From contig JAGAJF010000050.1 of the NCBI GenBank assembly GCA_017829005.1, positions 1 through 38,661 of the forward strand: a stretch of DNA of 38,661 nucleotides. The letters run 5' to 3'. The notes under the pieces were generated by a model. That model saw nothing but the letters and a program-made list of their open reading frames with translations, was not told the origin of the DNA and ran no database searches. Position numbers and translations under genes: made by a program. Of this stretch, positions 4,748 to 20,624 are shown piece by piece. This DNA comes from Oscillospiraceae bacterium (GTDB lineage: Bacteria > Bacillota > Clostridia > Oscillospirales > Ruminococcaceae). Numbering within the stretch: position 1 is the stretch's first letter; the number at the start of each line of letters is the position of its first letter.

Positions 4748-5083
4748 GCGAGTAAGCTATGCGGTTGAACTCTTTTTGAGTTAGGAAAGTCCGGGCATCA
4801 CAGAGCAGGGTAGCTGCTAACGGCAGCCGAGGGCGACCTTAGGGAAAGTGCAACAGAAATATACCGCCCCCTTCGGGGTAAGGGTGGAAAGGTGAGGTAA
4901 GAGCTCACCGGAGCGGTGGAGACACCGCTGCCGTGTAAACCCTATCCGATGCAACGTCTATTGGTACGTGTACGTCAATGTCTGCTCGGCAGGCGTACCG
5001 TAATGACGGCTAAAGCGTTTCGGCGACGATTCGCTCAGATAGATTTCCGCACACGACAAAACCCGGCTTATCGGCTTAGTCGC
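4748..5083 (+). ncRNA. rnpB: RNase P RNA, class A
   Basis: Catalytic RNA that removes 5' leaders from pre-tRNAs. Hallmarks seen are the conserved 5' core GAGGAAAGTCCGGGC-like segment (here TTAGGAAAGTCCGGGCATC, 4781-4799), the GGGTGGAAAGGTGAGGTAAGAGCTCACCG-type region at about 4883-4912, and the 3' core AGATAGATTTCCGC followed by ACCCGGCTTATCGGC. The P1 helix pairs GCGAGTAAGC (4748-4757) with GCTTAGTCGC (5074-5083) with one mismatch, which fixes both ends. The GGCTTATCGGC-type 3' segment and the overall order point to class A rather than Bacillus-type class B. A T tract follows directly at 5085-5091. Confidence 0.95.
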
Positions 5084-5100
5084 ATTTTTTTGAATTTGAG

Positions 5101-10821: not shown

Positions 10822-11832
10822 TTGATACAGATTGAAGATCTTTCAAAAACATTTCACACCGCCGCCGGTGAATTTACCGCTCTTTCAGATGTGAATTTAA
10901 CGGTGAACGATGGTGAGATATTCGGTATAATCGGACTTTCGGGTGCGGGAAAAAGCACGCTGGTCAGGTGTATAAATTATCTTGAGGTGCCCACAAACGG
11001 CAGGGTGGTCATTGACGGCGACGAGCTGGGTAAGCTTTCCAAAAAGGAGCTGCTTATCAAAAGACGGAGCATTGGAATGATATTTCAGGGCTTTAATCTT
11101 CTGGAGCAGAGGACAGTTTTAAAAAATGTCTGCTTTCCCCTTGAGATAGCCAAAATGCCGAAGAGCGACGCTGTGAAAAGGGCAAGAGAGCTTCTTGCGC
11201 TGGTGGGGCTTTCGGACAAGGAAAATTCATATCCCTCTCAGCTTTCGGGCGGGCAGAAGCAGCGTGTTGCCATTGCAAGGGCGCTGGCGGCGGAGACAAA
11301 ATATCTGCTGTGCGACGAGGCTACAAGTGCACTTGACCCCGACACCACCCGCTCCATTCTCGAGCTTCTGAAAAAGGTGAACAGAGAGCTGGGAGTTACC
11401 ATAATCGTTATCACCCACGAGATGAAGGTGATAGAAAGCATCTGCGACAGGGCGGCTGTTATTGACGGGGGACGCATTGCCGAGCTGGCGGCGGTAAGCG
11501 AGCTTTTCGCTTCTCCGAAGTCGGACATTGCCAGAAAGCTTATCCTTCCATCGGTGAACACTGCAAGCGAGATAAAGGGCGGCAGGGTGATACGAATCAC
11601 CTTTGACGGGGAAAATTCCTTCAAGCCCACGGTTGCAAATCTTATCCTCACCTGTCAGGCTCCTCTTAACATTCTGAAAGCGGACACGGAGGATATAGGC
11701 GGGGTTGCCTGCGGATATATCATTCTCGGGCTGCCCGATGATACGGCTGTTGCCGACAGGGTGATAAGATATCTTGAGGATAATAATATCAGTTACAGCT
11801 TCGGCGAAAGTGAGGTGGAAAAGAATGTCTGA
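10822..11832 (+). CDS. metN: Methionine ABC importer ATP-binding protein MetN
   Basis: 336 residues. ABC ATPase signatures are Walker A GLSGAGKST (38-46), signature LSGGQKQR, and Walker B LLCDEATSALD followed by a switch His in VITHE. The C-terminal part (about 256-330) is the NIL/ACT-like domain (IRITFDGENSFKPTVANLI) that binds methionine and gates transport in MetN proteins, so this is a methionine rather than a generic amino-acid transporter. The start is TTG, right after the SGNH stop, with GGGAGG 8 nt upstream. It overlaps metI by 8 nt. The complex imports D/L-methionine or related compounds at the membrane. Confidence 0.93.
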   Translation: MIQIEDLSKTFHTAAGEFTALSDVNLTVNDGEIFGIIGLSGAGKSTLVRCINYLEVPTNGRVVIDGDELGKLSKKELLIKRRSIGMIFQGFNLLEQRTVLKNVCFPLEIAKMPKSDAVKRARELLALVGLSDKENSYPSQLSGGQKQRVAIARALAAETKYLLCDEATSALDPDTTRSILELLKKVNRELGVTIIVITHEMKVIESICDRAAVIDGGRIAELAAVSELFASPKSDIARKLILPSVNTASEIKGGRVIRITFDGENSFKPTVANLILTCQAPLNILKADTEDIGGVACGYIILGLPDDTAVADRVIRYLEDNNISYSFGESEVEKNV

Positions 11833-12499
11833 GCTTCTCATTAAGCTTTGGGAGTCGGGGACTATTCAGAAGGGCATATGGGAAACGGTTTATATGACTT
11901 TTATATCCGCATTCTTTTCCTATCTCATCGGGCTGCCCCTGGGGATCCTGCTTAATGTTACCGACAAGGACGGTATTCACCCTATGCCCTGGTTATACCG
12001 CATTTTAAGCATTGCGGTGAACATTTTCAGAAGTATTCCCTTTGTTATTCTGATGGTGGCTATGCTCCCTGTGGCGAAGCTCATTACGGGAACAAGCCTC
12101 GGAAACAGGGCTATGATAGTTACGCTTATTATTGCCGCTGCGCCTTATGTGGCGAGAATGGCGGAGTCCTCCTTCAAGGAAGTGGGGGGCGGCGTTATTG
12201 AGGCGGCTAAGTCTATGGGCGCTTCGGATATGCGGATAATCTGCAGGGTGCTTATCCCCGAGGCTAAGCCTTCGCTTATTGTGGGCAGCGTTATTTCCCT
12301 GGTGACTATTCTCGGCTACTCTGCTATGGCGGGTACTATCGGCGGCGGCGGTCTGGGTATGATAGCTGTAAGCTTCGGTTATCAGAGATTTAACGATGAT
12401 ATTATATGGGTATGCGTTCTGCTTACCATTGTCATTGTGCAGATAATTCAAGAGGTGGGTATGCTTATCGCAAGAAAGACCGACAAGCGTATCAGATAG
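11825..12499 (+). CDS. metI: Methionine ABC importer permease MetI
   Basis: 225 residues with about five membrane segments. The ABC permease EAA loop is present (EVGGGVIEAAKSMGASDMRI). The typical MetI ending segment GGGGLGMIAVSFGYQRFNDDIIW is also visible. The ATG at 11825 overlaps the metN stop by 8 nt and has AGGTGG upstream; the longer open frame from 11774 lies inside metN. It pairs with MetN in the membrane. Confidence 0.93.
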   Translation: MSELLIKLWESGTIQKGIWETVYMTFISAFFSYLIGLPLGILLNVTDKDGIHPMPWLYRILSIAVNIFRSIPFVILMVAMLPVAKLITGTSLGNRAMIVTLIIAAAPYVARMAESSFKEVGGGVIEAAKSMGASDMRIICRVLIPEAKPSLIVGSVISLVTILGYSAMAGTIGGGGLGMIAVSFGYQRFNDDIIWVCVLLTIVIVQIIQEVGMLIARKTDKRIR

Positions 12500-12513
12500 A
12501 AAGGAAACACAGA

Positions 12514-12579
12514 ATGGTACGGAATTTTGAGTCTCTCGTAAGAGCAAATTTCAGGTTCGGGCGAATGCGGCGATGTTGA
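12514..12579 (+). CDS. Possible 21-residue small ORF between metI and metQ
   Basis: An ATG preceded by AAAGGAAA (12500-12507) opens a 21-codon frame, rich in Arg (five of 21 codons) and ending Arg-Arg-Cys-stop. No family is recognisable. It has a plausible ribosome binding site and could be a leader peptide or coupling ORF for metQ, or simply chance. It contains no run of Met codons, so classic methionine attenuation is not supported. Confidence 0.25.
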   Translation: MVRNFESLVRANFRFGRMRRC

Positions 12580-12635
12580 CATTTGCTGTTATCGGAAAAA
12601 CTAAAATTTGTTATTTATGAAAGGAAATCACTATT

Positions 12636-13541
12636 ATGAAAAATCTTAGAAAAACATTTGCATTTATTTTAACTCTCGCTCTTTCCGCTGCTGTTACGGG
12701 CTGCGGCGCTTCGACAGGCAATACGGAAACTCAGACATCTGCTTCGGAAACTCAGAGCGCTGCTTCTGAGTATGCTGAGACAGAGGCAGCTTCAGGTGCT
12801 CTTGAAAAAATCGTGGTGGGTGCTACTTCTACTCCTCACGGAGAGATACTTGAGCAGGTAAAGGACGATCTTGCAGCGGCAGGCTATGAGCTTGAGATAG
12901 TTATTTTTGATGACTATGTACTGCCAAACACTTCTCTTAATGAAGGCTCTCTGGACGCTAACTATTTCCAGCACACACCTTATCTGAACAGCTTTAACGA
13001 GGCTAACGGAACGGATATTGTTTCCGCCGCTTCTATCCACTATGAGCCTTTCGGACTTTACGGAAATGGTGTTGCGTCCGTATCGGAGGTTCCCGAGGGT
13101 GCGACCATCATTATCCCTGCGGACGACAGCAATGAGACAAGAGCGCTGCTCCTTCTCGAGCAGGAAGATCTTATCAGTCTTCCCGAGGGGGCAAATGCGG
13201 TTGACGGCGTTACTACTCTTGACATTGTGGACAACAAGGGTTACAATATAATTACCGTTCAGGCTGACACCGTTGCGGCTCAGTTCGGAAACAGCGACAC
13301 AGGCTCTCTGGCAGTCATCAACGGAAACTATGCTCTTGCGGCAGGTCTTAACATTGCCGACGCTCTGGCTGTTGAGGACGCTTCGGGCAGTGCCGCTCAG
13401 ACCTATGCTAACATCATTGCCGTAAGAAAGGGCGATGAAACAAGTCCCAAGACTGCCGCTCTTGTGGGTGCCCTCAAGACCGATAAGGTTAAGAAGTACA
13501 TTGAGGACACTTACAACGGCGCTGTTGTGGCTATATTCTGA
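12636..13541 (+). CDS. metQ: Methionine-binding lipoprotein MetQ
   Basis: 301 residues. Type II signal peptide with lipobox AVTGC (Cys23), then a Ser/Thr/Glu-rich tether to about residue 55. The mature NlpA/lipoprotein-9 domain follows: IVVGATSTPHGEILEQVKDDL, NTSLNEGSLDANYFQHTPYL and ATIIIPADDSNETRALLLLE are family hallmarks. It delivers methionine to MetNI from the outer face of the membrane. The ATG has GAAAGGAA upstream. It lies 136 nt after metI, a gap that could hold an internal promoter or processing site, and it ends with a terminator. Confidence 0.93.
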   Translation: MKNLRKTFAFILTLALSAAVTGCGASTGNTETQTSASETQSAASEYAETEAASGALEKIVVGATSTPHGEILEQVKDDLAAAGYELEIVIFDDYVLPNTSLNEGSLDANYFQHTPYLNSFNEANGTDIVSAASIHYEPFGLYGNGVASVSEVPEGATIIIPADDSNETRALLLLEQEDLISLPEGANAVDGVTTLDIVDNKGYNIITVQADTVAAQFGNSDTGSLAVINGNYALAAGLNIADALAVEDASGSAAQTYANIIAVRKGDETSPKTAALVGALKTDKVKKYIEDTYNGAVVAIF

Positions 13542-13566
13542 TATGCCCCGATGCATTAAAATAATT

Positions 13567-13611
13567 TGCCTGACCCTGTGGGAATGCTCCGACAGGGTCG
13601 GGAGCTTTTTG
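13567..13611 (+). terminator. Terminator of the metNIQ unit
   Basis: The stem GACCCTGT/ACAGGGTC, with a 12-nt loop, can be extended by flanking pairs and is followed by TTTTTG. An alternative GCTCC/GGGAGC pairing ends in the same T tract. Confidence 0.7.
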
Positions 13612-13643
13612 TTTATTGAAAAAATTTTTCAAGGTGGTTTTTT

Positions 13644-13724
13644 GTGAAGAAAAATCCTTTATCCCTGTTATTTCTGCAATGCTTCTTATGCTTTCGGGCT
13701 GCGAGCTTTACGGCATTACAGCTG
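13644..13724 (+). pseudogene. Decayed lipoprotein gene interrupted by a MITE-like element
   Basis: A GTG start with AAGGTGG 6 nt upstream opens KK-rich sequence, but a one-base shift in the A run at 13649-13653 separates the start from the signal peptide frame. In the shifted frame the sequence reads SFIPVISAMLLMLSGCELYG, a textbook lipobox. Restoring one A would join the two. The frame then runs into the MITE-like element at 13725. A short stretch after the element (ENIFSDGFNG, then stop) might be a remnant of the same gene. It is read as a dead lipoprotein gene with two lesions; a sequencing error in the A run is an alternative for the first. Confidence 0.55.
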
Positions 13725-13885
13725 ATACTAATTCCGCATCAACCTATAGACAGATACGACAGCTATAATTTCGTCACTAGTCGTCAAGCTCCTTTGCCGG
13801 GCGGCAAGCCCGCCTGCAGTCGCTTTCCTAGATTGACGAAATTCTATCTGCCGTCCTTGTCTATAGAACGATGTGGAATTAGTAT
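13725..13885. repeat. 161-bp MITE-like inverted-repeat element, copy 2
   Basis: This is the reverse complement of the element at 3299-3459, same length, with only two differences (one in the CACT[A/C]GTCG segment and one in CCC[G/T]CC). Termini are ATACTAATTCC and GGAATTAGTAT. It interrupts a lipoprotein-like signal peptide ORF. The two copies are in opposite orientation, about 10.3 kb apart. Confidence 0.88.
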
Positions 13886-14036
13886 GAAAATATCTTTTCG
13901 GACGGGTTTAATGGCTGATTTATGTTAGATAACGTGGCGGTATTTCTTTGACAGAGTGGAAGATTTAGCAAAAAATAGGAAAGGATTTACAGTGATATTT
14001 GGCTAATATGTATAAATTCGCTAAAACTATATAAAA

Positions 14037-14053
14037 CCTATTGACATAGTAGG
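14037..14053. promoter_or_regulatory. Candidate Rrf2-type operator overlapping the -35
   Basis: CCTA (14037-14040) and TAGG (14050-14053) are symmetric around 14045, with the -35 TTGACA between the arms. The AACCTAT/ATAGTAGGAA look is reminiscent of IscR/CymR-like sites. The Rrf2 regulator at the end of the operon is the natural candidate to bind here. This is inference from position and symmetry. Confidence 0.4.
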
Positions 14054-14069
14054 AATAACGTGATATAAT
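14041..14069 (+). promoter_or_regulatory. Consensus promoter of the sulfur operon
   Basis: TTGACA (14041-14046), a 17-bp spacer and TATAAT (14064-14069) preceded by TGA (extended -10). It drives the nine-gene run starting at 14121. Confidence 0.85.
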
Positions 14070-14120
14070 ATCAGTAGTCTCAGGGGAGACGGTAATCCTT
14101 ATTTTTACGGAGCTGATAAT

Positions 14121-15356
14121 ATGAATTTTAACACCGCTCTGCTTCATCAGAGCTTTGACGGAGAAAAGTCCACAGGCTCGACCCTTGCTCCAATATTCCA
14201 GTCAAGCGCTTTCGCTCACGAATCGGCGGAAAAGCTTGAGGCGGTATTCAACAACAAGGCTCCCGGTTTTGCTTACACCAGGATAAGCAATCCTACCGTT
14301 GACTCCTTCGAAAAGCGCATTGCCGCATTGGAAAAGGGTATCGGCGCGGTTGCCTGTTCCTCGGGCATGGCGGCGGTCACCATGTCGCTTTTGAACATTT
14401 TAGAGTCGGGTGACGAGCTGATTGCAGGCTCGGCTCTGTTCGGAGGTACCATTGACCTTTTCTGTGACCTTGAGGCTTTCGGCATAAAGACCGTTTTCGC
14501 CGACGAGGTGACGGCGGAAAGCGTGGAAAGGCTTGCTACAGACAGGACAAAGGCTGTATTTACCGAGCTTATCGGAAATCCCAAGCTTAATGTTACGGAC
14601 ATAAAAGCAGTTTCCGAGGCGGCTCACAAACGGGGTATTCCCCTTATTATCGACAGCACCACCGCAACGCCTTATCTTATAAATCCCTTTGATTTCGGGG
14701 CGGACATTGTTATCCACTCCTCTTCAAAATACATAAACGGCAGCGGAAACTCCATCAGCGGCGTGATAATCGACAGCGGCAGCTTTAAGTGGGACCCGAA
14801 GCGATACAGGGGATTTGAGGAATATAAGAAATTCGGAAAATTTGCTTATCTTGCTAAGCTTCGAAACGGCATATGGAGAAATGCGGGTGCCTGTCTTGCG
14901 CCGATGAACGCATATCTCAATTCCATAGGGCTTGAAACCTTAGGACTTCGAATGGAAAGGCTTTGCTTTAATGCAAAAAAGCTTGCGGAGTTTTTTGAGG
15001 CGGACGGAAGAGTTACGGTAAATTATCCCGCTCTTGAGTCAAATCCCTATCACCGGCTTACGGAGAGGGAGCTTAAAGGAATGGGCGGCGCTATAATCAC
15101 CATTCGGGCAGGCAGCAAGGAAAAGGCATTTAAGCTTATAAACAGTCTTAAATATGCCTGCATAGCTACCAACATCGGAGATGTGAGAACTCTTGTTATC
15201 CACCCTGCAAGTACCATTTACACTCACAGCACCATAGAGCAGCAGGTGAATGCGGGAGTTTATGAGGACACCATTCGCATAAGCGTGGGCATTGAGGATA
15301 TTGACGATCTAATTGCCGATTTCAGGCAGGCTATTGATAAAACGGAGGTTATTTAA
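14121..15356 (+). CDS. metY: O-acetylhomoserine/O-acylhomoserine sulfhydrylase-like PLP enzyme (MetY type)
   Basis: 411 residues, Cys/Met-metabolism PLP family, fold type I. Visible are YTRISNPTVD (phosphate-binding Tyr52/Arg54 of the neighbouring subunit), SSGMAA, the PLP-ring Asp178 in IIDST, and the Schiff-base Lys203 in HSSSKYINGSG. The 411-residue length and the NGxGxSISG-like segment favour sulfhydrylases over cystathionine synthases. It should transfer sulfide, or protein thiocarboxylate sulfur, to O-acetylhomoserine to make homocysteine. The downstream ThiS-like carrier, E1 and JAMM protease support the thiocarboxylate route. First gene of the operon; GGAG lies about 9 nt before the ATG. 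No acyltransferase making the acceptor lies nearby. Confidence 0.88.
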   Translation: MNFNTALLHQSFDGEKSTGSTLAPIFQSSAFAHESAEKLEAVFNNKAPGFAYTRISNPTVDSFEKRIAALEKGIGAVACSSGMAAVTMSLLNILESGDELIAGSALFGGTIDLFCDLEAFGIKTVFADEVTAESVERLATDRTKAVFTELIGNPKLNVTDIKAVSEAAHKRGIPLIIDSTTATPYLINPFDFGADIVIHSSSKYINGSGNSISGVIIDSGSFKWDPKRYRGFEEYKKFGKFAYLAKLRNGIWRNAGACLAPMNAYLNSIGLETLGLRMERLCFNAKKLAEFFEADGRVTVNYPALESNPYHRLTERELKGMGGAIITIRAGSKEKAFKLINSLKYACIATNIGDVRTLVIHPASTIYTHSTIEQQVNAGVYEDTIRISVGIEDIDDLIADFRQAIDKTEVI

Positions 15357-15357
15357 T

Positions 15358-16218
15358 ATGGCAGTGGATTATGCAACTCTTAAAAAAGGCGGATTTATGC
15401 GCCAGAAGCAAAAGAATAATTTCTCGCTGAGACTTCGTGTTGTGGGCGGAAACGTTACGGCGGTTCAGCTTGCGAAAATTGCCGAGGTAGCGGAGAAATA
15501 CGGTGACGGTCACGTTCATCTTACTTCCCGCCAGAGCGTTGAGATACCCTTTATCAAGCTTGACGACATTGACGAGGTAAAGGCGGCGCTTGCAGAGGGC
15601 GGAGTTGAGCCCGGAGTATGCGGTCCGAGAGTAAGAACGGTCACTGCCTGTCAGGGTGAGGCTATTTGTCCCTCGGGTTGTATTGATACCTACGCTCTTG
15701 CAAAGGAGCTTGATGAAAGATATTTCGCAAGGGAGCTTCCCCACAAGTTCAAATTCGGAATTACGGGCTGTCAGAACAACTGCCTTAAAGCAGAGGAAAA
15801 CGACCTGGGCATCAAGGGCGGTATCAAGGTAAAATGGCGTGAAAGCGACTGCATTAACTGCGGCGTTTGCGAAAAAGCCTGCCGTGTGGGTGCGATAGAG
15901 ATAAAGGACGGAAAGATTTCCGTTGATGAAGCTAAGTGCAATTTCTGTGGAAGATGTGTCAAAGCCTGTCCCACCGACGCATGGGATACTGTTCACGGAT
16001 ATATCGTTTCCTTTGGCGGACTTTTCGGAAACAGCATAAGCAAGGGCGAGGCTGTTATCCCCTTCATTGAGGACAAGGAAAAGCTTCTGAAAATATGCGA
16101 CACTGCTATTGAGTTTTTCGGGGAAAATGCAAATCCCGGAGAGAGGTTCAAGTTCACCCTTGACAGGGTAGGCAGAGATAAATTTGAAAAGAAAATTCTG
16201 GAGGTTTACAATGGCTGA
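15358..16218 (+). CDS. Compact siroheme sulfite/nitrite reductase-like protein with two [4Fe-4S] ferredoxin clusters
   Basis: 286 residues. The sulfite/nitrite reductase core has the paired cysteine motif CQGEAIC (Cys98, Cys104) and CQNNC (Cys138, Cys142) that binds the siroheme-coupled 4Fe-4S cluster. A ferredoxin insert follows with CINCGVCEKAC (165-175) and CNFCGRCVKACP (194-204). It contains one reductase half instead of the usual two, like AsrC or the small archaeal Dsr-like proteins. Predicted role: six-electron reduction of sulfite to sulfide for the sulfur carrier. No AsrA/AsrB electron donor is adjacent; the thioredoxin/thioredoxin reductase pair or ferredoxin may supply electrons. 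The ATG at 15358 has GGAGG 9 nt upstream, one base after the metY-like stop. Confidence 0.88.
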   Translation: MAVDYATLKKGGFMRQKQKNNFSLRLRVVGGNVTAVQLAKIAEVAEKYGDGHVHLTSRQSVEIPFIKLDDIDEVKAALAEGGVEPGVCGPRVRTVTACQGEAICPSGCIDTYALAKELDERYFARELPHKFKFGITGCQNNCLKAEENDLGIKGGIKVKWRESDCINCGVCEKACRVGAIEIKDGKISVDEAKCNFCGRCVKACPTDAWDTVHGYIVSFGGLFGNSISKGEAVIPFIEDKEKLLKICDTAIEFFGENANPGERFKFTLDRVGRDKFEKKILEVYNG

Positions 16219-16462
16219 GATAGATTTTAACATTGACGATAATGTGGATATTACCGATGTGGTCTGCCCCACAACTTTTGTAAAGGCAAAGGTGGCTCTT
16301 GAGGAGCTTGACGACGGACAGATACTTGCGGTTAAGATGAATGACGGTGAGCCTGTTCAGAACGTTCCCAGAAGCATTAAGGAAGAGGGTCATCAGATAC
16401 TAAAGCTCATCAACAACGAGGACGGCACCTACACTCTCATTGTAAAAAAGGTCGGTGACTGA
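16211..16462 (+). CDS. TusA/SirA-like sulfur carrier protein
   Basis: 83 residues. The TusA-family motif VVCPTTFVKAKVALEELDDGQIL contains the conserved Cys-Pro (Cys19-Pro20) that carries a persulfide in the family. It should receive sulfur from the reductase or a desulfurase and pass it on, possibly to the ThiS-like carrier. The second position after Cys-Pro differs from classic CPxP (CPTT), so it belongs to a divergent branch. The ATG at 16211 overlaps the upstream stop by 8 nt and has GGAGG 7 nt upstream, so it is translationally coupled. Confidence 0.82.
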   Translation: MAEIDFNIDDNVDITDVVCPTTFVKAKVALEELDDGQILAVKMNDGEPVQNVPRSIKEEGHQILKLINNEDGTYTLIVKKVGD

Positions 16463-16463
16463 G

Positions 16464-16778
16464 ATGGCGGTTCGGGTAAGTACAGATACCTTTGAGAAAG
16501 AGGTAATAAATGCGGGCGGGGCTGTTATTGCGGATTTTTATTCCGACAGCTGTGTTCCCTGCAAAAGGCTTTCTCCCGTTCTTGCGGAAATTGAAGAAGA
16601 GCAGGGTGACAAGGTCAAGCTTGTTAAGGTAAACATCAATTTTGACACTGAGCTTGCGGAAAAATACGGTGTTATGTCCGTTCCCACACTCATATTCTTT
16701 GGGGACGGAGAGGAAAGATCCCGCATAAGCGGTGCGGTGAAAAAATCCGAGATACTTTCGGAAATAGAAAAAATCTGA
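16464..16778 (+). CDS. Thioredoxin-like protein with atypical SCVPC site
   Basis: 104 residues, complete thioredoxin fold: buried Asp24, active site SDSCVPCKRLSP with Cys30/Cys33, cis-Pro74 in VPTLIFF. The usual Trp before the first Cys is replaced by Ser, and the inner dipeptide is Val-Pro rather than Gly-Pro, which should shift redox potential and partner choice. It lies one base after the TusA stop and four genes before a thioredoxin reductase in the same operon, so a dedicated reductive or sulfur-relay role is likely. An earlier GTG (16455) overlaps the tusA-like gene and is less likely. Confidence 0.87.
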   Translation: MAVRVSTDTFEKEVINAGGAVIADFYSDSCVPCKRLSPVLAEIEEEQGDKVKLVKVNINFDTELAEKYGVMSVPTLIFFGDGEERSRISGAVKKSEILSEIEKI

Positions 16779-16802
16779 TCATAATATAAGGAGAAAAATG
16801 CT

Positions 16803-17012
16803 ATGAATATCACAGTTGCAGGAGAGAAAAAAGAGGTAAAGGACGGTCTTACCGTTGCACAGCTGGTTATTGACGAAAAGGTGGAGACTCCCGAATACGT
16901 TACCGTTACAATAAACGATGAATTTGTTGAGAGCGGCGCTTTTGAAAGCACCGTTTTAAAGGACGGGGACAGTGTTGAGTTTCTGTATTTTATGGGCGGA
17001 GGTTCCCTTTGA
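16803..17012 (+). CDS. ThiS/MoaD-like ubiquitin-fold sulfur carrier (HcyS-like)
   Basis: 69 residues with the beta-grasp pattern MNITVAGEKKEVKDGLTVAQLV ... DGDSVEFLYFMGGGSL. The conserved di-Gly is not terminal: the protein ends Gly65-Gly66-Gly67-Ser68-Leu69. Carriers of this type need trimming before activation, and a JAMM protease two genes downstream can do it. After trimming to Gly-Gly, the C terminus would be adenylated by the E1-like enzyme and converted to a thiocarboxylate that donates sulfur to MetY. AAGGAG lies about 8 nt before the ATG. ThiS for thiamine synthesis is less likely because of the tail and the neighbours. Confidence 0.85.
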   Translation: MNITVAGEKKEVKDGLTVAQLVIDEKVETPEYVTVTINDEFVESGAFESTVLKDGDSVEFLYFMGGGSL

Positions 17013-17047
17013 TAAAACCCGTAACTTTTGAGAAAGGATAGATATAA

Positions 17048-17872
17048 ATGGCATTTACAAACGAACAGCTTGAAAGATATTCCCGTCACATAATCCTCAA
17101 AGAGGTGGGTGCAAAGGGACAGAAAAAGCTTCTTAATGCAAAGGTTCTCATTATCGGTGCGGGAGGTCTGGGCGCTCCTGCGGCAATGTATCTTGCGGCG
17201 GCGGGAGTTGGCACTATCGGTATCGCAGACGCTGACGAGGTCGATCTTTCAAATCTCCAGCGGCAGATAATCCATTCCACCGCCGATATCGGCAAGGCTA
17301 AGGTGCAGTCCGCTAAGGAAACTATGGAGGCTATAAACCCCGATGTTACGGTGAAAACCTACCGCACCTTCGTTACAAGCGAGAACATTTCCGAGCTTAT
17401 TGCGGACTATGATTTCATCATTGACGGCACGGACAATTTCCCTGCAAAGTTTCTTATAAACGATGCCTGCGTTATGGCGAAAAAGCCATTCTCCCATGCA
17501 GGAATTATTCGATTCAAGGGTCAGCTTATGACCTATGTTCCGGGACAGGGTCCATGCTACCGCTGTGTTTTCAAAAATCCACCTCCAAAGGACGCTGTTC
17601 CCACCTGCAAGCAGGCAGGCGTTATCGGTGCAATGGGCGGCGTTATCGGCAGCTTGCAGGCTATGGAGGCTGTTAAATACATTATCGGTCAGGGCGAGCT
17701 TCTTACGGGATATCTGCTTACCTATGACGCCCTTACAATGGAATTTCGCAAGGTAAAGCTCCCTTCGGACACTTCAAAGTGCGCTGTCTGCGGCGAGCAT
17801 CCCACAATTACGGAGCTTATCGATTACGAGCAGCATGAATGCGACGGCGTTCATCTTACCAACGAGGACTGA
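17048..17872 (+). CDS. E1-like (ThiF/MoeB/HesA) carrier-activating enzyme (HcyF-like)
   Basis: 274 residues. ATP-binding GAGGLG (37-42), Arg72 in NLQRQ, Asp130 in DGTDNF, structural zinc cysteines CYRC (170/173) and CAVC (245/248), and the Cys187 in PTCKQAGVIG. It adenylates the C terminus of the ThiS-like protein so that sulfur can be attached. It has no rhodanese domain, so sulfur must come from another protein such as TusA or the sulfite reductase. It begins 36 nt after the carrier gene and ends 7 nt before the JAMM gene. A MoeB or ThiF role is possible by sequence alone but not supported by the neighbours. Confidence 0.88.
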   Translation: MAFTNEQLERYSRHIILKEVGAKGQKKLLNAKVLIIGAGGLGAPAAMYLAAAGVGTIGIADADEVDLSNLQRQIIHSTADIGKAKVQSAKETMEAINPDVTVKTYRTFVTSENISELIADYDFIIDGTDNFPAKFLINDACVMAKKPFSHAGIIRFKGQLMTYVPGQGPCYRCVFKNPPPKDAVPTCKQAGVIGAMGGVIGSLQAMEAVKYIIGQGELLTGYLLTYDALTMEFRKVKLPSDTSKCAVCGEHPTITELIDYEQHECDGVHLTNED

Positions 17873-17878
17873 TTTAAA

Positions 17879-18292
17879 ATGATAACCTTAAAAAGAGCCG
17901 ATTTTGATACAATTCTCAGGCACGCGGAAAGCGTTCTTCCCGAGGAAGCCTGCGGACTTATTGCGGGGGAGATAACCGAAGGCGGAAAAACGATAAAAAA
18001 GGTCTATATCCTTACGAACATCGACCACTCCAACGAGCATTTTTCCCTTGACCCCAAGGAGCAGCTGGCGGCGGTGAAGGATATGCGTGCAAATGGGCTT
18101 GTTCCTCTGGGCAACTGGCATTCCCACCCCGAGTCTCCCTCCCGTCCCTCCGAGGAGGACAAGCGCCTTGCCTATGACAGCAAGGCAAGCTATCTTATCC
18201 TTTCTCTGATGGACAGGAATGCCCCTGTTCTCAACTCCTTTAAGATAACGGGGGATAATGCGGAGAATGAGGGTATAATAATTACAGACTGA
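17879..18292 (+). CDS. JAMM/MPN+ zinc metalloprotease (Mec+/HcyD-like)
   Basis: 137 residues. The JAMM zinc motif is complete: Glu23 in PEEACGL, His81-x-His83, x7-Ser91-x2-Asp94 in HSHPESPSRPSEED. Known relatives hydrolyse the peptide bond after the di-Gly of small ubiquitin-like sulfur carriers or remove amino acids from them (Mec+ on CysO; HcyD on HcyS). Here it should release Ser-Leu or Gly-Ser-Leu from the GGGSL tail of the carrier encoded upstream, or release homocysteine from a carrier adduct. It is co-transcribed, 6 nt after the E1-like gene. Confidence 0.87.
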   Translation: MITLKRADFDTILRHAESVLPEEACGLIAGEITEGGKTIKKVYILTNIDHSNEHFSLDPKEQLAAVKDMRANGLVPLGNWHSHPESPSRPSEEDKRLAYDSKASYLILSLMDRNAPVLNSFKITGDNAENEGIIITD

Positions 18293-18312
18293 TTTTTTTG
18301 GAGAATAGCAAA

Positions 18313-19236
18313 ATGATTTATGATACCATAATAATCGGAAGCGGATCGGCAGGTCTTTCGGCGGCTATATATGCCTCACGTTCGGAAATGGATTTTATCG
18401 TTATCGAGAAAATTTTTATGGGCACGGGTCAGATAGCCGAGAGCGAACGGGTGGATAATTATCCCGGGCTTTACGGCGAAAACGGATATGATCTGGGCGA
18501 GAAATTCCGAAGTCACGCCGAGACTCTGGGAGCAAGATTTATCGAGGGCGAGGTAACGAAAATATCTCCCGCAAAGGGCATATACACCGTTTATCTGCAG
18601 GACGGCAGCGAGTTTGAGACAAAGACTGTCATCTTTGCCGCAGGAGCTTCTCACCGAAAGCTTGGGATAAAGGGCGAGGAAGAGCTGTCGGGCAGGGGAG
18701 TTTCCTACTGCGCCGTATGCGACGGAGCTTTTTATAAAAACAAGGTGGCTGCTGTTGTGGGCGGCGGAGATACGGCTCTGGGAGATGCTCTTTATCTTTC
18801 AAAGATAGCGAGCAAGGTTTATCTTATTCACAGAAGAGATGAATTTCGTGCAAACAAGTCCCTTTGCAGTAAGGTGGCTGAGACTGAAAATATCGAAACG
18901 GTGATGAATGCCGTTCCTGTGGAGATATTCGGCGACAAACGTGTGGAGGGTATCAGGATAAACCATAACGGCAGGGAAGAAGCTCTTGAAGTAAACGGAG
19001 TATTTGTGGCTGTGGGAACTGTTCCTGGCAGCGAGCCATTAAGCGGCGTTGTTAATATGGACAGCGGCGGGTATATCATTGCAGGGGAGGACTGCATTAC
19101 CTCCGATAAGGGCATTTTCGCCGCAGGAGATGTGCGCACAAAGCCGCTCAGGCAGGTCGTTACCGCTGCTGCTGACGGCGCAAACAGCATTTACTCCGCA
19201 GAAAAATATATCTCACAGCTTTCAGTGAGGAAATAA
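18313..19236 (+). CDS. trxB: Thioredoxin reductase-like flavoprotein
   Basis: 307 residues. FAD site GSGSAG (9-14), redox pair CAVC (Cys133/Cys136), NADPH-binding VVGGGDTALGDALYLSKI with HRRDEFRA, and C-terminal FAD motif GIFAAGDVRTKPLRQVVTAAADG. It should reduce the operon's thioredoxin with NADPH or a ferredoxin-type donor. Start: TGGAG lies 9 nt before the ATG at 18313; a TTG at 18298 is also in frame but lacks a site. NADPH use follows from the HRRDEFRA motif; a ferredoxin/flavin variant cannot be excluded. Confidence 0.9.
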   Translation: MIYDTIIIGSGSAGLSAAIYASRSEMDFIVIEKIFMGTGQIAESERVDNYPGLYGENGYDLGEKFRSHAETLGARFIEGEVTKISPAKGIYTVYLQDGSEFETKTVIFAAGASHRKLGIKGEEELSGRGVSYCAVCDGAFYKNKVAAVVGGGDTALGDALYLSKIASKVYLIHRRDEFRANKSLCSKVAETENIETVMNAVPVEIFGDKRVEGIRINHNGREEALEVNGVFVAVGTVPGSEPLSGVVNMDSGGYIIAGEDCITSDKGIFAAGDVRTKPLRQVVTAAADGANSIYSAEKYISQLSVRK

Positions 19237-19292
19237 AGCTGTAGCTTTGGTCGCTTTCCACGTTAAACGATAAAACTGTTGAGGTGAAAGAA

Positions 19293-19709
19293 ATGCTCGT
19301 CACAACAAAAGGAAGATATGCTCTGCAGGTAATGATAGATCTGGCGGAGCATTACAGCGGCAAGTGCATACCCGTCAAGGACATTGCAGGGCGGCAGGAG
19401 CTGTCAATAAAATATCTTGAGCAGATTATGCCTGTTCTCACCAAAGGTGACCTTGTTTTCGGTGTTCACGGAAAAAACGGCGGATATATGCTTAAAAGAC
19501 CTCCCGAAAATTACAGCGTGGGGGAGATACTCCGTGTTGCGGAGGGCGATCTTGTTCCCGTGTCATCTTTGAAGGAAAATAATCCTTCTCAGGATAACAG
19601 GACTATGAAGATGTGGGAGGATTTCTACAAGCTCACAAATGATTACTTTGACAGCATTTCCATTGCAAGCCTTATCCACAACGGCGGAGATTACGATTAT
19701 ATAATATGA
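19293..19709 (+). CDS. Rrf2-family transcriptional regulator (CymR-like, no Fe-S cysteines)
   Basis: 138 residues. Rrf2 winged helix: MLVTTKGRYALQVMIDLAEHY, then ELSIKYLEQIMPVLTKGDLVFGVHGKNGGYMLKR. The protein has a single Cys (25) and lacks the three-Cys cluster site of IscR, so it does not sense Fe-S directly. This resembles CymR, the cysteine-metabolism repressor of Firmicutes. It is the last gene of the sulfur operon and is the best candidate to bind the dyad at the operon promoter. ATG at 19293 with GAGGTG 7 nt upstream; the open frame's GTG at 19284 overlaps that site. Confidence 0.88.
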   Translation: MLVTTKGRYALQVMIDLAEHYSGKCIPVKDIAGRQELSIKYLEQIMPVLTKGDLVFGVHGKNGGYMLKRPPENYSVGEILRVAEGDLVPVSSLKENNPSQDNRTMKMWEDFYKLTNDYFDSISIASLIHNGGDYDYII

Positions 19710-19712
19710 GAA

Positions 19713-19756
19713 TAAAATATCCCGTCAGACCCTTGAGCCTGACGGGATATCTCTTT
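19713..19756. terminator. Bidirectional terminator between the sulfur operon and sugar ABC genes
   Basis: A perfect 12-bp stem (ATATCCCGTCAG/CTGACGGGATAT, arms 19717-19728 and 19739-19750) lies between convergent genes. It has TATTTTATT on the minus side and CTCTTT on the plus side. Confidence 0.75.
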
Positions 19757-19763
19757 AACTTGA

Positions 19764-20624
19764 TTATTCTTTTACAGAGCCGTTTACAAGACCTGCATAG
19801 ATCTGCTTCTGGAGTGTGAGGAAGATGACCAGAGCAGGAATGATACAGATCACGATACCTGCAAAGATTATCTCCCATTTAGCTCCGTAGGGACCCATAA
19901 AGCGGTAGAGCGATGTGGAGACCACTGACAGCTCTTCGCTGGGCATATAAAGCTGGGGAGTGTAGAAGTCGTTGTAAATGCTGATTACCTTGATGATAAG
20001 AACTGTTGCGATAGCGGGTTTAAGCAGGGGAAGGATTATCTTGAAGAAAACCGTAAAATAGTTTGCTCCGTCAATGATGGCGCTCTCGTCAAGGGAGTAG
20101 GAGATGTTGTCCAGAAACTGCATAAAGATGTAGATGGAAACAATATCCGTACCGATGTAGAGGATTATGGGAGCTGCCATAGTGCCCACAAGGTGGAAAT
20201 TGTTCATAATGCGGTAAACCGTTACCTGCATAGAGATAGCAGGGAAAAGCGTGGCAAGCAGGAACGCTGCCTTGAGGACCTTGCCGAGAACAGTCTTGAA
20301 ACGCTGGAGAACATAGGCAGTCATTGTACCTACGATTATCGTTCCCGTACAGGATATCACTATGATTATCGCTGTGTTTTTCAGACCTAAAAGAACCTTG
20401 CCGTCAATGAAAGCGGTTTTGTAGTTTGACCATTCAAACTTTGTGGGAAGTGCAAAAACATTGGAAGAAAGGAACTCCGTATTGTTCTTGAAGGAGCCTA
20501 AAAATACCACCACAAGGGGAATGAAAACCACAAGGCAGGCAATGACGAGAATAGCATATTTCAGGACGGTAAAAAGCTTCGGGACAAAGCTATAGCTGTC
20601 ATTTTTTATCACTGCTTCAGCCAT
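19764..20624 (-). CDS. Carbohydrate ABC transporter permease (MalG-like)
   Basis: 286 residues, six predicted membrane segments. The EAA loop of sugar importers reads DESAIIDGANYFTVFFKIILPLLKP. C-terminal VNGSVKE fits the MalG/LacG family (AGLVNGSVK ending). It forms the translocation pore with the MalF-like subunit encoded one base upstream. No ATPase gene is in the cluster, so a shared MsmK/MalK-type ATPase elsewhere is expected. Confidence 0.9.
   Translation of the reverse strand: MAEAVIKNDSYSFVPKLFTVLKYAILVIACLVVFIPLVVVFLGSFKNNTEFLSSNVFALPTKFEWSNYKTAFIDGKVLLGLKNTAIIIVISCTGTIIVGTMTAYVLQRFKTVLGKVLKAAFLLATLFPAISMQVTVYRIMNNFHLVGTMAAPIILYIGTDIVSIYIFMQFLDNISYSLDESAIIDGANYFTVFFKIILPLLKPAIATVLIIKVISIYNDFYTPQLYMPSEELSVVSTSLYRFMGPYGAKWEIIFAGIVICIIPALVIFLTLQKQIYAGLVNGSVKE

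Follow-up and report, generated by a model that had tools for sequence, protein, structure and literature searches.

Synthesis of homocysteine in which the sulfur travels as a protein thiocarboxylate was reportedly described for Wolinella succinogenes by Krishnamoorthy and Begley in 2011, with HcyS, HcyF, HcyD, MetY and Sir as the participating proteins, and the CysO-CysM-Mec+ route to cysteine is also known. Here, we describe a cluster of nine genes, all on the + strand, at positions 14121..19709 of a 38,661-nucleotide (nt) stretch of DNA from the gut Clostridia genome of an Oscillospiraceae bacterium (assembly GCA_017829005.1, contig JAGAJF010000050.1); 'the window' below means this whole stretch. 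Neighbourhoods of this kind have been tabulated before: row 4e of Iyer, Burroughs and Aravind (2006; PMC1779556), as set out in the accessible part of that paper, places them in W. succinogenes, G. metallireducens, six low-GC Gram-positive bacteria and others, always with an E1 free of a rhodanese domain and always with SirA, which is the same as TusA.

Judged from its sequence, the operon quite probably serves to convert sulfite into homocysteine by way of a protein thiocarboxylate that carries the sulfur. Below, we describe the genes, the features that argue for this route, the alternatives to it, and a variant found in relatives in which sulfur may come from another donor.

The gene cluster

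Each of the nine products matches a broad family in Pfam (Table 1). The genes run in one direction with short gaps behind a consensus promoter, as the initial annotation had it; the 8-nt overlap that it described as recurring is found only once, between Sir and TusA, and the remaining gaps measure 1 to 56 nt, namely 1 (MetY–Sir), 1 (TusA–Trx), 24 (Trx–ThiS), 35 (ThiS–E1), 6 (E1–JAMM), 20 (JAMM–TrxB; 5 with the TTG start) and 56 nt (TrxB–Rrf2; 47 with the GTG start). Among 16 promoter-like sites in positions 13500-20000, that of the operon alone has a 12/12 match; shuffled sequences gave a mean of 7.9 promoter-like sites for this span (standard deviation 3.0). We infer that the nine genes form one operon. 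They are under purifying selection: in a comparison with a near relative, an Oscillospiraceae metagenome-assembled genome (locus L041), the ratio of nonsynonymous to synonymous substitution rates (dN/dS) was 0.00-0.15 at a dS of 0.27-0.52, and protein identity across the nine genes was 87-100% (E1 99.6%, TusA 100%), TrxB being compared only up to position 19173 because the TrxB ends differ.

Table 1. Features of the operon and its promoter region, with coordinates in the window and profile scores in bits
Feature	Position	Strand	Matches and remarks
Operator-like element CCTATTGACATAGTAGG	14037..14053	+	overlaps -35 box; exact match to CCTATTNACNTANTANG
Promoter TTGACA-17-TATAAT	14041..14069	+	12/12 match to -35/-10
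MetY-type sulfhydrylase, 411 aa, loop-deleted	14121..15356	+	PF01053 377.8
Compact sulfite reductase (Sir), 286 aa, two extra 4Fe-4S motifs	15358..16218	+	PF01077 101.8, PF03460 80.9, PF00037 52.2
TusA/SirA-like sulfur relay protein, 83 aa	16211..16462	+	PF01206 66.9
Thioredoxin (Trx), 104 aa, CVPC	16464..16778	+	PF00085 84.4
ThiS-like carrier, 69 aa, end MGGG-SL	16803..17012	+	PF02597 45.5; TIGR01683 62.7 (cut-off 37.45)
E1-like adenylyltransferase, 274 aa, without rhodanese domain	17048..17872	+	PF00899 297
JAMM metalloprotease, 137 aa	17879..18292	+	Prok-JAB PF14464 86.7
Thioredoxin reductase (TrxB), 307 aa (312 from TTG start at 18298)	18313..19236	+	TIGR01292 345.2 (cut-off 343.45)
Rrf2-family regulator, 138 aa (141 from GTG start at 19284)	19293..19709	+	PF02082 99.6; TIGR00738 108.5 (cut-off 73.3)
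aa, amino acids.

Predicted route to homocysteine

In the proposed pathway, the JAMM protein would cut the Ser-Leu tail off the ThiS-like carrier, and the E1 would then adenylate the exposed glycine end. Sir would turn sulfite into sulfide, and the sulfur would reach the carrier either directly or as a TusA persulfide, giving carrier-COSH; Trx, reduced by TrxB, might resolve an intermediate acyl-persulfide or persulfide. MetY, with its loop deletion, would couple the carrier thiocarboxylate with O-acetylhomoserine, and homocysteine, the methionine precursor, would be set free by the JAMM protein. An Rrf2 protein would probably repress the promoter through an element over its -35 box, shared with aprAB-cysDN, the products of which, with a sulfate transporter, would provide the sulfite. 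The genes with their motifs, the carrier tail, the loop deletion, the conservation and the separate location of the sulfate genes are observations; we put forward as proposals all of the reaction steps, what TusA, Trx and TrxB do in them, and which regulator reads the element. Trx and TrxB may plausibly act as a dedicated reductant. According to a review, in the part accessible, an unknown electron provider is needed for the human MOCS2 thiocarboxylate to be released (PMC10135228). In E. coli, TusA has been tied to the synthesis of the molybdenum cofactor (PMC3831636, accessible part). That synthesis uses a related carrier and, by analogy, TusA may be linked to the carrier of this operon in a similar way.

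The carrier, its partners and their conserved residues

The E1 was used as a query against genome contigs, whereby at least 530 relatives were confirmed, and the best 80 were kept as named loci; since these are the best-scoring relatives of one E1, all counts below are biased towards close relatives and come from loci that are not independent of one another. Near-duplicates are present among them (L057 and L058), and L041 and L139 are apparently one contig.

The carrier ends with residues beyond the MGGG sequence, as would be expected if the JAMM protein trims it before the E1 acts. All 78 carrier-bearing relatives have 1 to 10 residues after MGGG, and 53 of them exactly one; no carrier was seen at 2 of the 80 named loci. 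Another ThiS is encoded by this genome on contig C107, before a thiG-like gene, and ends exactly at MGGG. A thiamine role for the operon carrier was considered and rejected on account of this separate ThiS, which precedes genes that we take to be thiG-like and thiH-like. The solved chains nearest the operon carrier, 2k5p and 3cwi, are labelled as thiamine-biosynthesis protein, and 2k5p likewise extends beyond MGGG.

Residues with catalytic, metal-binding or cluster-binding roles are conserved in the carrier's partners. In alignments of the window with the named relatives, where near-invariant means at least 97% identity with at most three gaps, this category includes C19-P20 of TusA (76 rows), C30 and C33 of Trx (63 rows), the twelve cluster cysteines of Sir (53 rows), C187 of the E1 along with its zinc-site cysteines C170, C173, C245 and C248 (81 rows), E23, H81, H83, S91 and D94 of the JAMM protein (78 rows), and C133 and C136 of TrxB (40 rows). 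The JAMM protein of the window keeps its metal and catalytic residues; the solved chain nearest to it, 2kks, is labelled as an uncharacterized protein. A Pfam search gave no rhodanese match in the E1, and Sir lies below the cut-off of the AsrC model (TIGR02912; 164.3 versus 324.1).

The loop-deleted MetY

The operon MetY lacks some 10 residues, a PNPSYHG-type segment, that are found in both of the MetY-type paralogues of the same genome. The corresponding stretch is 30 residues long in 68 of 69 operon MetYs, including that of the window, and 28 in the other, whereas it is 40 and 41 residues long in the two paralogues. The solved chain 3ri6, which we take to be the Wolinella enzyme (the structure table gives the molecule name only), covers this region without any net insertion relative to the operon MetY, and the region is 10-13 residues longer in 8sf5, 7kb0, 4kam, 8erb, 8eqw, 8wko, 8ovh, 2ctz and 4oc9. 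Chain 2cb1 and the methionine gamma-lyases were aligned over part of the stretch only and are uninformative on the loop. A string check on unaligned sequences did not find YHG in five Fibrobacter MetY paralogues. Against TIGR01326, the operon MetY scores 435.3, under the cut-off of 495.1.

Recurrence in other genomes

The comparison of gene order that the initial annotation proposed as a check finds the block in dozens of loci. A stretch of 3.4 kb or more upstream of the E1 is available in 65 of the best 80 loci, and these contain TusA and the carrier without exception (65/65 each), MetY in 61, Trx in 56 and Sir in 48. Downstream, where there is room, JAMM follows in 75 of 76 loci and TrxB in 35 of 70. 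The order MetY-Sir-TusA-Trx-ThiS-E1-JAMM is repeated in gut and rumen genomes. Within the order to which the window belongs, the JAMM protein is sparse (9/295 genomes at E 1e-6); in its genus, 9/20 genomes have it at E 1e-10, the window's own genome being counted both times.

Certain loci depart from this picture. L028 and L031 have the carrier, E1 and JAMM, and L032 has TusA, JAMM and E1, with no MetY match in the stretch read in any of the three. At L094:7730-8300, MetY is matched by two weak fragments (195 and 40 bits), which may reflect a disrupted gene or an error in the sequence. The window's own genome has a second ThiF-family match (L004, contig C45), with one TAA inside the reading frame. 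The E1 proteins of Fibrobacter (records within L059-L076) share 88-89% identity with the window E1 across phyla, a similarity that suggests transfer among rumen bacteria.

Alternative readings

A number of observations weigh against thiocarboxylate-based homocysteine synthesis. The case for the operon is made from sequence. Over the whole protein, MetY scores higher against 8sf5 (379.4) and 7kb0 (372.7) than against 3ri6 (292.7, seventh), and a profile of 18 operon MetYs also ranks 8sf5 and 7kb0 above 3ri6, which argues against a single origin with the latter. The carrier and E1 also pass the general ThiS, ThiF and MoeB models. Finally, the route may be redundant, given that CysK (contig C67) and two more enzymes of the MetY type are encoded in the genome.

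The closeness of MetY to other MetYs and the generality of the models that carrier and E1 pass would both suit an arrangement in which MetY uses free sulfide from Sir, and the carrier, E1 and JAMM protein thiolate tRNA or a cofactor, merely sharing the operon; L028 and L031, with those three genes and no MetY match in the stretch read, point the same way. We nevertheless consider this unlikely, given that MetY accompanies the block in 61 of the 65 loci, that the loop deletion is present in all 69 operon MetY rows and that a separate ThiS stands beside thiG-like genes in this genome. It might also be supposed that the product is cysteine and the acceptor O-acetylserine, as in the CysO-CysM-Mec+ route, particularly as TIGR01326 is itself named O-acetylhomoserine aminocarboxypropyltransferase/cysteine synthase. 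The pyridoxal phosphate enzyme of the operon, however, belongs to Cys_Met_Meta_PP (PF01053) and not to the PALP family of cysteine synthases, CysK is encoded elsewhere in the genome, and metNIQ-like genes lie directly upstream of the operon; we regard a cysteine product as very unlikely. Rows 4c and 4d of Iyer et al. do combine carrier, E1 and JAB with a cysteine synthase, but the E1 of row 4c has the rhodanese domain that the operon E1 lacks (PMC1779556, accessible part).

Regulation

An operator-like element overlaps the -35 box (Table 1). Its pattern, CCTATTNACNTANTANG, has two exact sites in the 2.88-Mb draft genome, one at the operon promoter and the other at C29:25147-25163, immediately ahead of aprA. 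Allowing for up to one mismatch raises the count to six, and the reversed-pattern control likewise gives six; the one-mismatch sites were dropped because the counts are equal, and the argument is confined to the exact pair. With two contig-edge loci set aside, 34 of 66 loci carry the motif no more than 300 bp ahead of MetY or Sbp; these comprise 32 of the 43 Sir-type loci, 2 of the 14 that have encapsulin or desulfurase matches and none of the 9 that lack Trx. Among the first 30 loci, it had 12 matches versus 0-3 for each of ten shuffled motifs. The window and a few relatives served to define the motif, and their matches to it are built in.

The initial annotation gave the operon a dedicated Rrf2 regulator. 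Circumstantial support for this comes from the operator-like element, which the Rrf2 protein likely reads by analogy with Clostridium thermocellum, where the sulfate transporter genes are preceded by an IscR-like motif and negative regulation by a nearby Rrf2 protein has been proposed (PMC3848806, accessible part); the pairing of protein and element is one that we infer. The Rrf2 gene is distant, or absent from the stretch read, at many related loci. The protein itself reaches the level of the Rrf2 superfamily and scores below the CymR cut-off (NF047409; 101.3 versus 195).

Sulfur supply and flanking genes

At L041, metNIQ is followed, in this order, by sbp-cysTWA, eight enzyme genes, aprAB-cysDN and Rrf2. 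Relative to this, sbp-cysTWA and aprAB-cysDN are absent from either side of the window's nine genes. Window positions 13995-14124 match L041 3020-3149, upstream of sbp, at 86.9%, so that the promoter ahead of the window MetY corresponds to the one that leads sbp in L041; positions 19209-19270 form the second junction, flanking the absent segment. Both sulfate gene sets of this genome sit on contig C29, and loss of sulfate assimilation was rejected on that ground. Plain relocation of the linked genes to C29 is not supported, as the C29 copies are clearly more divergent from L041 than the operon is; in searches with L041 queries, the C29 and L041 copies score 624 and 792 (Sbp), 984 and 1269 (AprA), and 973 and 1243 (CysN), respectively. 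The genes between the two sets on C29 read as siroheme-like synthesis genes (hemA, sirC, hemC, cobA/hemD, hemB, hemL).

As for the acylated acceptor, the genome has a MetA-type acyltransferase (437.3 bits, below the cut-off of 495). For MetX, the best match in the genome was 18.6 bits and the protein is taken as not found, under a cut-off that is strict (0/14 controls pass).

A metNIQ-like methionine ABC transporter lies directly upstream of the operon (window 10822-13541); MetQ is recognized by family models, and the names MetN and MetI are our assumption. A riboswitch or T-box leader was considered and dismissed, the only Rfam match above the gathering score in the window being RNase P, a bacterial class A RNA gene at 4749-5086 (259.1 bits).

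An encapsulin-desulfurase variant

Sir is missing from the operon in 17 of the 65 loci. Eight loci (L047, L048, L049, L052, L063, L071, L093 and L098) have genes for a family 2A encapsulin and a cysteine desulfurase immediately ahead of MetY, and L053 has the desulfurase there, at the contig edge. L145 belongs to a genome of the same genus as the window and seems to duplicate the L053 record. The variant cluster of R. flavefaciens ATCC 19208 (L049) occupies L049:2533-13237, with a shell score of 483.8 (cut-off 380) and a cargo score of 790.5, just below the cut-off of 800. L030, L051 and L055 also look like variant loci on a reading of the locus, outside the Sir search described next.

A search of whole genomes with the window Sir at E 1e-15 found no match in the nine genomes with a desulfurase before MetY, nor in L119 and L120, although the threshold may miss distant sulfite reductases and assembly gaps are also possible. 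The same search was positive in the remaining six of the 17 (L046, L060, L062, L075, L076 and L108), and in 3/3 Sir-type controls. It is possible, and we offer it as a tentative suggestion from these gene neighbourhoods, that MetY-TusA-Trx-carrier-E1-JAMM forms a module for homocysteine in which the sulfur donor can be exchanged, being either Sir, as in the window, or a cysteine desulfurase packaged in a family 2A encapsulin, as in genomes of the R. flavefaciens type and certain other gut genomes; in the variant, sulfur from cysteine would leave the shell by way of TusA and reach the carrier and then homocysteine. Four Fibrobacter loci (L060, L062, L070 and L076) combine the encapsulin cluster with Sir in the locus or genome, which argues against strict donor exchange. 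If the suggestion is right, encapsulin sulfur acquires a biosynthetic destination and the persistence of TusA with the block is explained. Serine O-acetyltransferases and rhodaneses have been named as enriched neighbours of encapsulins, and the accessible parts of the same studies do not mention the thiocarboxylate pathway (PMC8049743, PMC8346489). Among the publications listed in literature searches, judged at the level of titles and the beginnings of abstracts, none links encapsulin to this pathway.

Comparison with known systems

If the predicted pathway is correct, the ubiquitin-like thiocarboxylate route to homocysteine is a recurrent means of sulfite assimilation in gut and rumen bacteria, the parts of which general family models label only as sulfhydrylase, ThiS, ThiF/MoeB and JAB, and testable roles follow for TusA, thioredoxin and the Rrf2-type operator.

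The initial annotation likened the core to the system of W. succinogenes, and at the level of sequence this is well supported by the tailed carrier, the JAMM residues, the E1 and the MetY loop deletion. The same five core genes (carrier, E1, JAMM, MetY and Sir) are present in both. In both, the carrier has residues beyond the glycines, Ser-Leu here and presumably a single alanine in Wolinella, and the MetY loop is absent, as far as 3ri6 is rightly assigned to that organism. Trx, TrxB and a linked Rrf2 gene distinguish the present operon from the Wolinella system, as does the position of the sulfate genes on another contig. A literature search on the names HcyS, HcyD and HcyF returned nothing related to this pathway. 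The description of the operon as a more complete module has to be qualified, in that it is without the linked sulfate genes of L041, which lie elsewhere in this genome.

Comparison can also be made with the CysO-CysM-Mec+ type of cluster, to which we assume that rows 4c and 4d of the neighbourhood table belong. In the accessible part of the table, these rows share with the operon the carrier and JAB, plus the E1 in row 4c; unlike the operon, they have a cysteine synthase in place of MetY, the E1 of row 4c is fused to rhodanese, and Sir and SirA are unnamed there. A PALP-family cysteine synthase is not in the operon, CysK being on contig C67 instead. Family 2A encapsulins with desulfurase cargo, for their part, precede the same block in some relatives but not in the window.

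The closest correspondence is with row 4e, which has the ThiS/MoaD-like carrier, JAB, rhodanese-free E1, SirA, sulfite reductase and O-acetylhomoserine sulfhydrylase; the word thioredoxin is absent from the main text of that paper, whereas Trx is present here (PMC1779556, accessible part). TusA can hence no longer be counted as an addition to the Wolinella arrangement, since SirA is always found in row 4e and W. succinogenes stands in the same row. Nor are Firmicutes examples few, at least as gene clusters, with six low-GC Gram-positive bacteria in that row and dozens of loci scanned here. The operon adds a member to a known kind of cluster, the novelty of which the initial annotation overrated.

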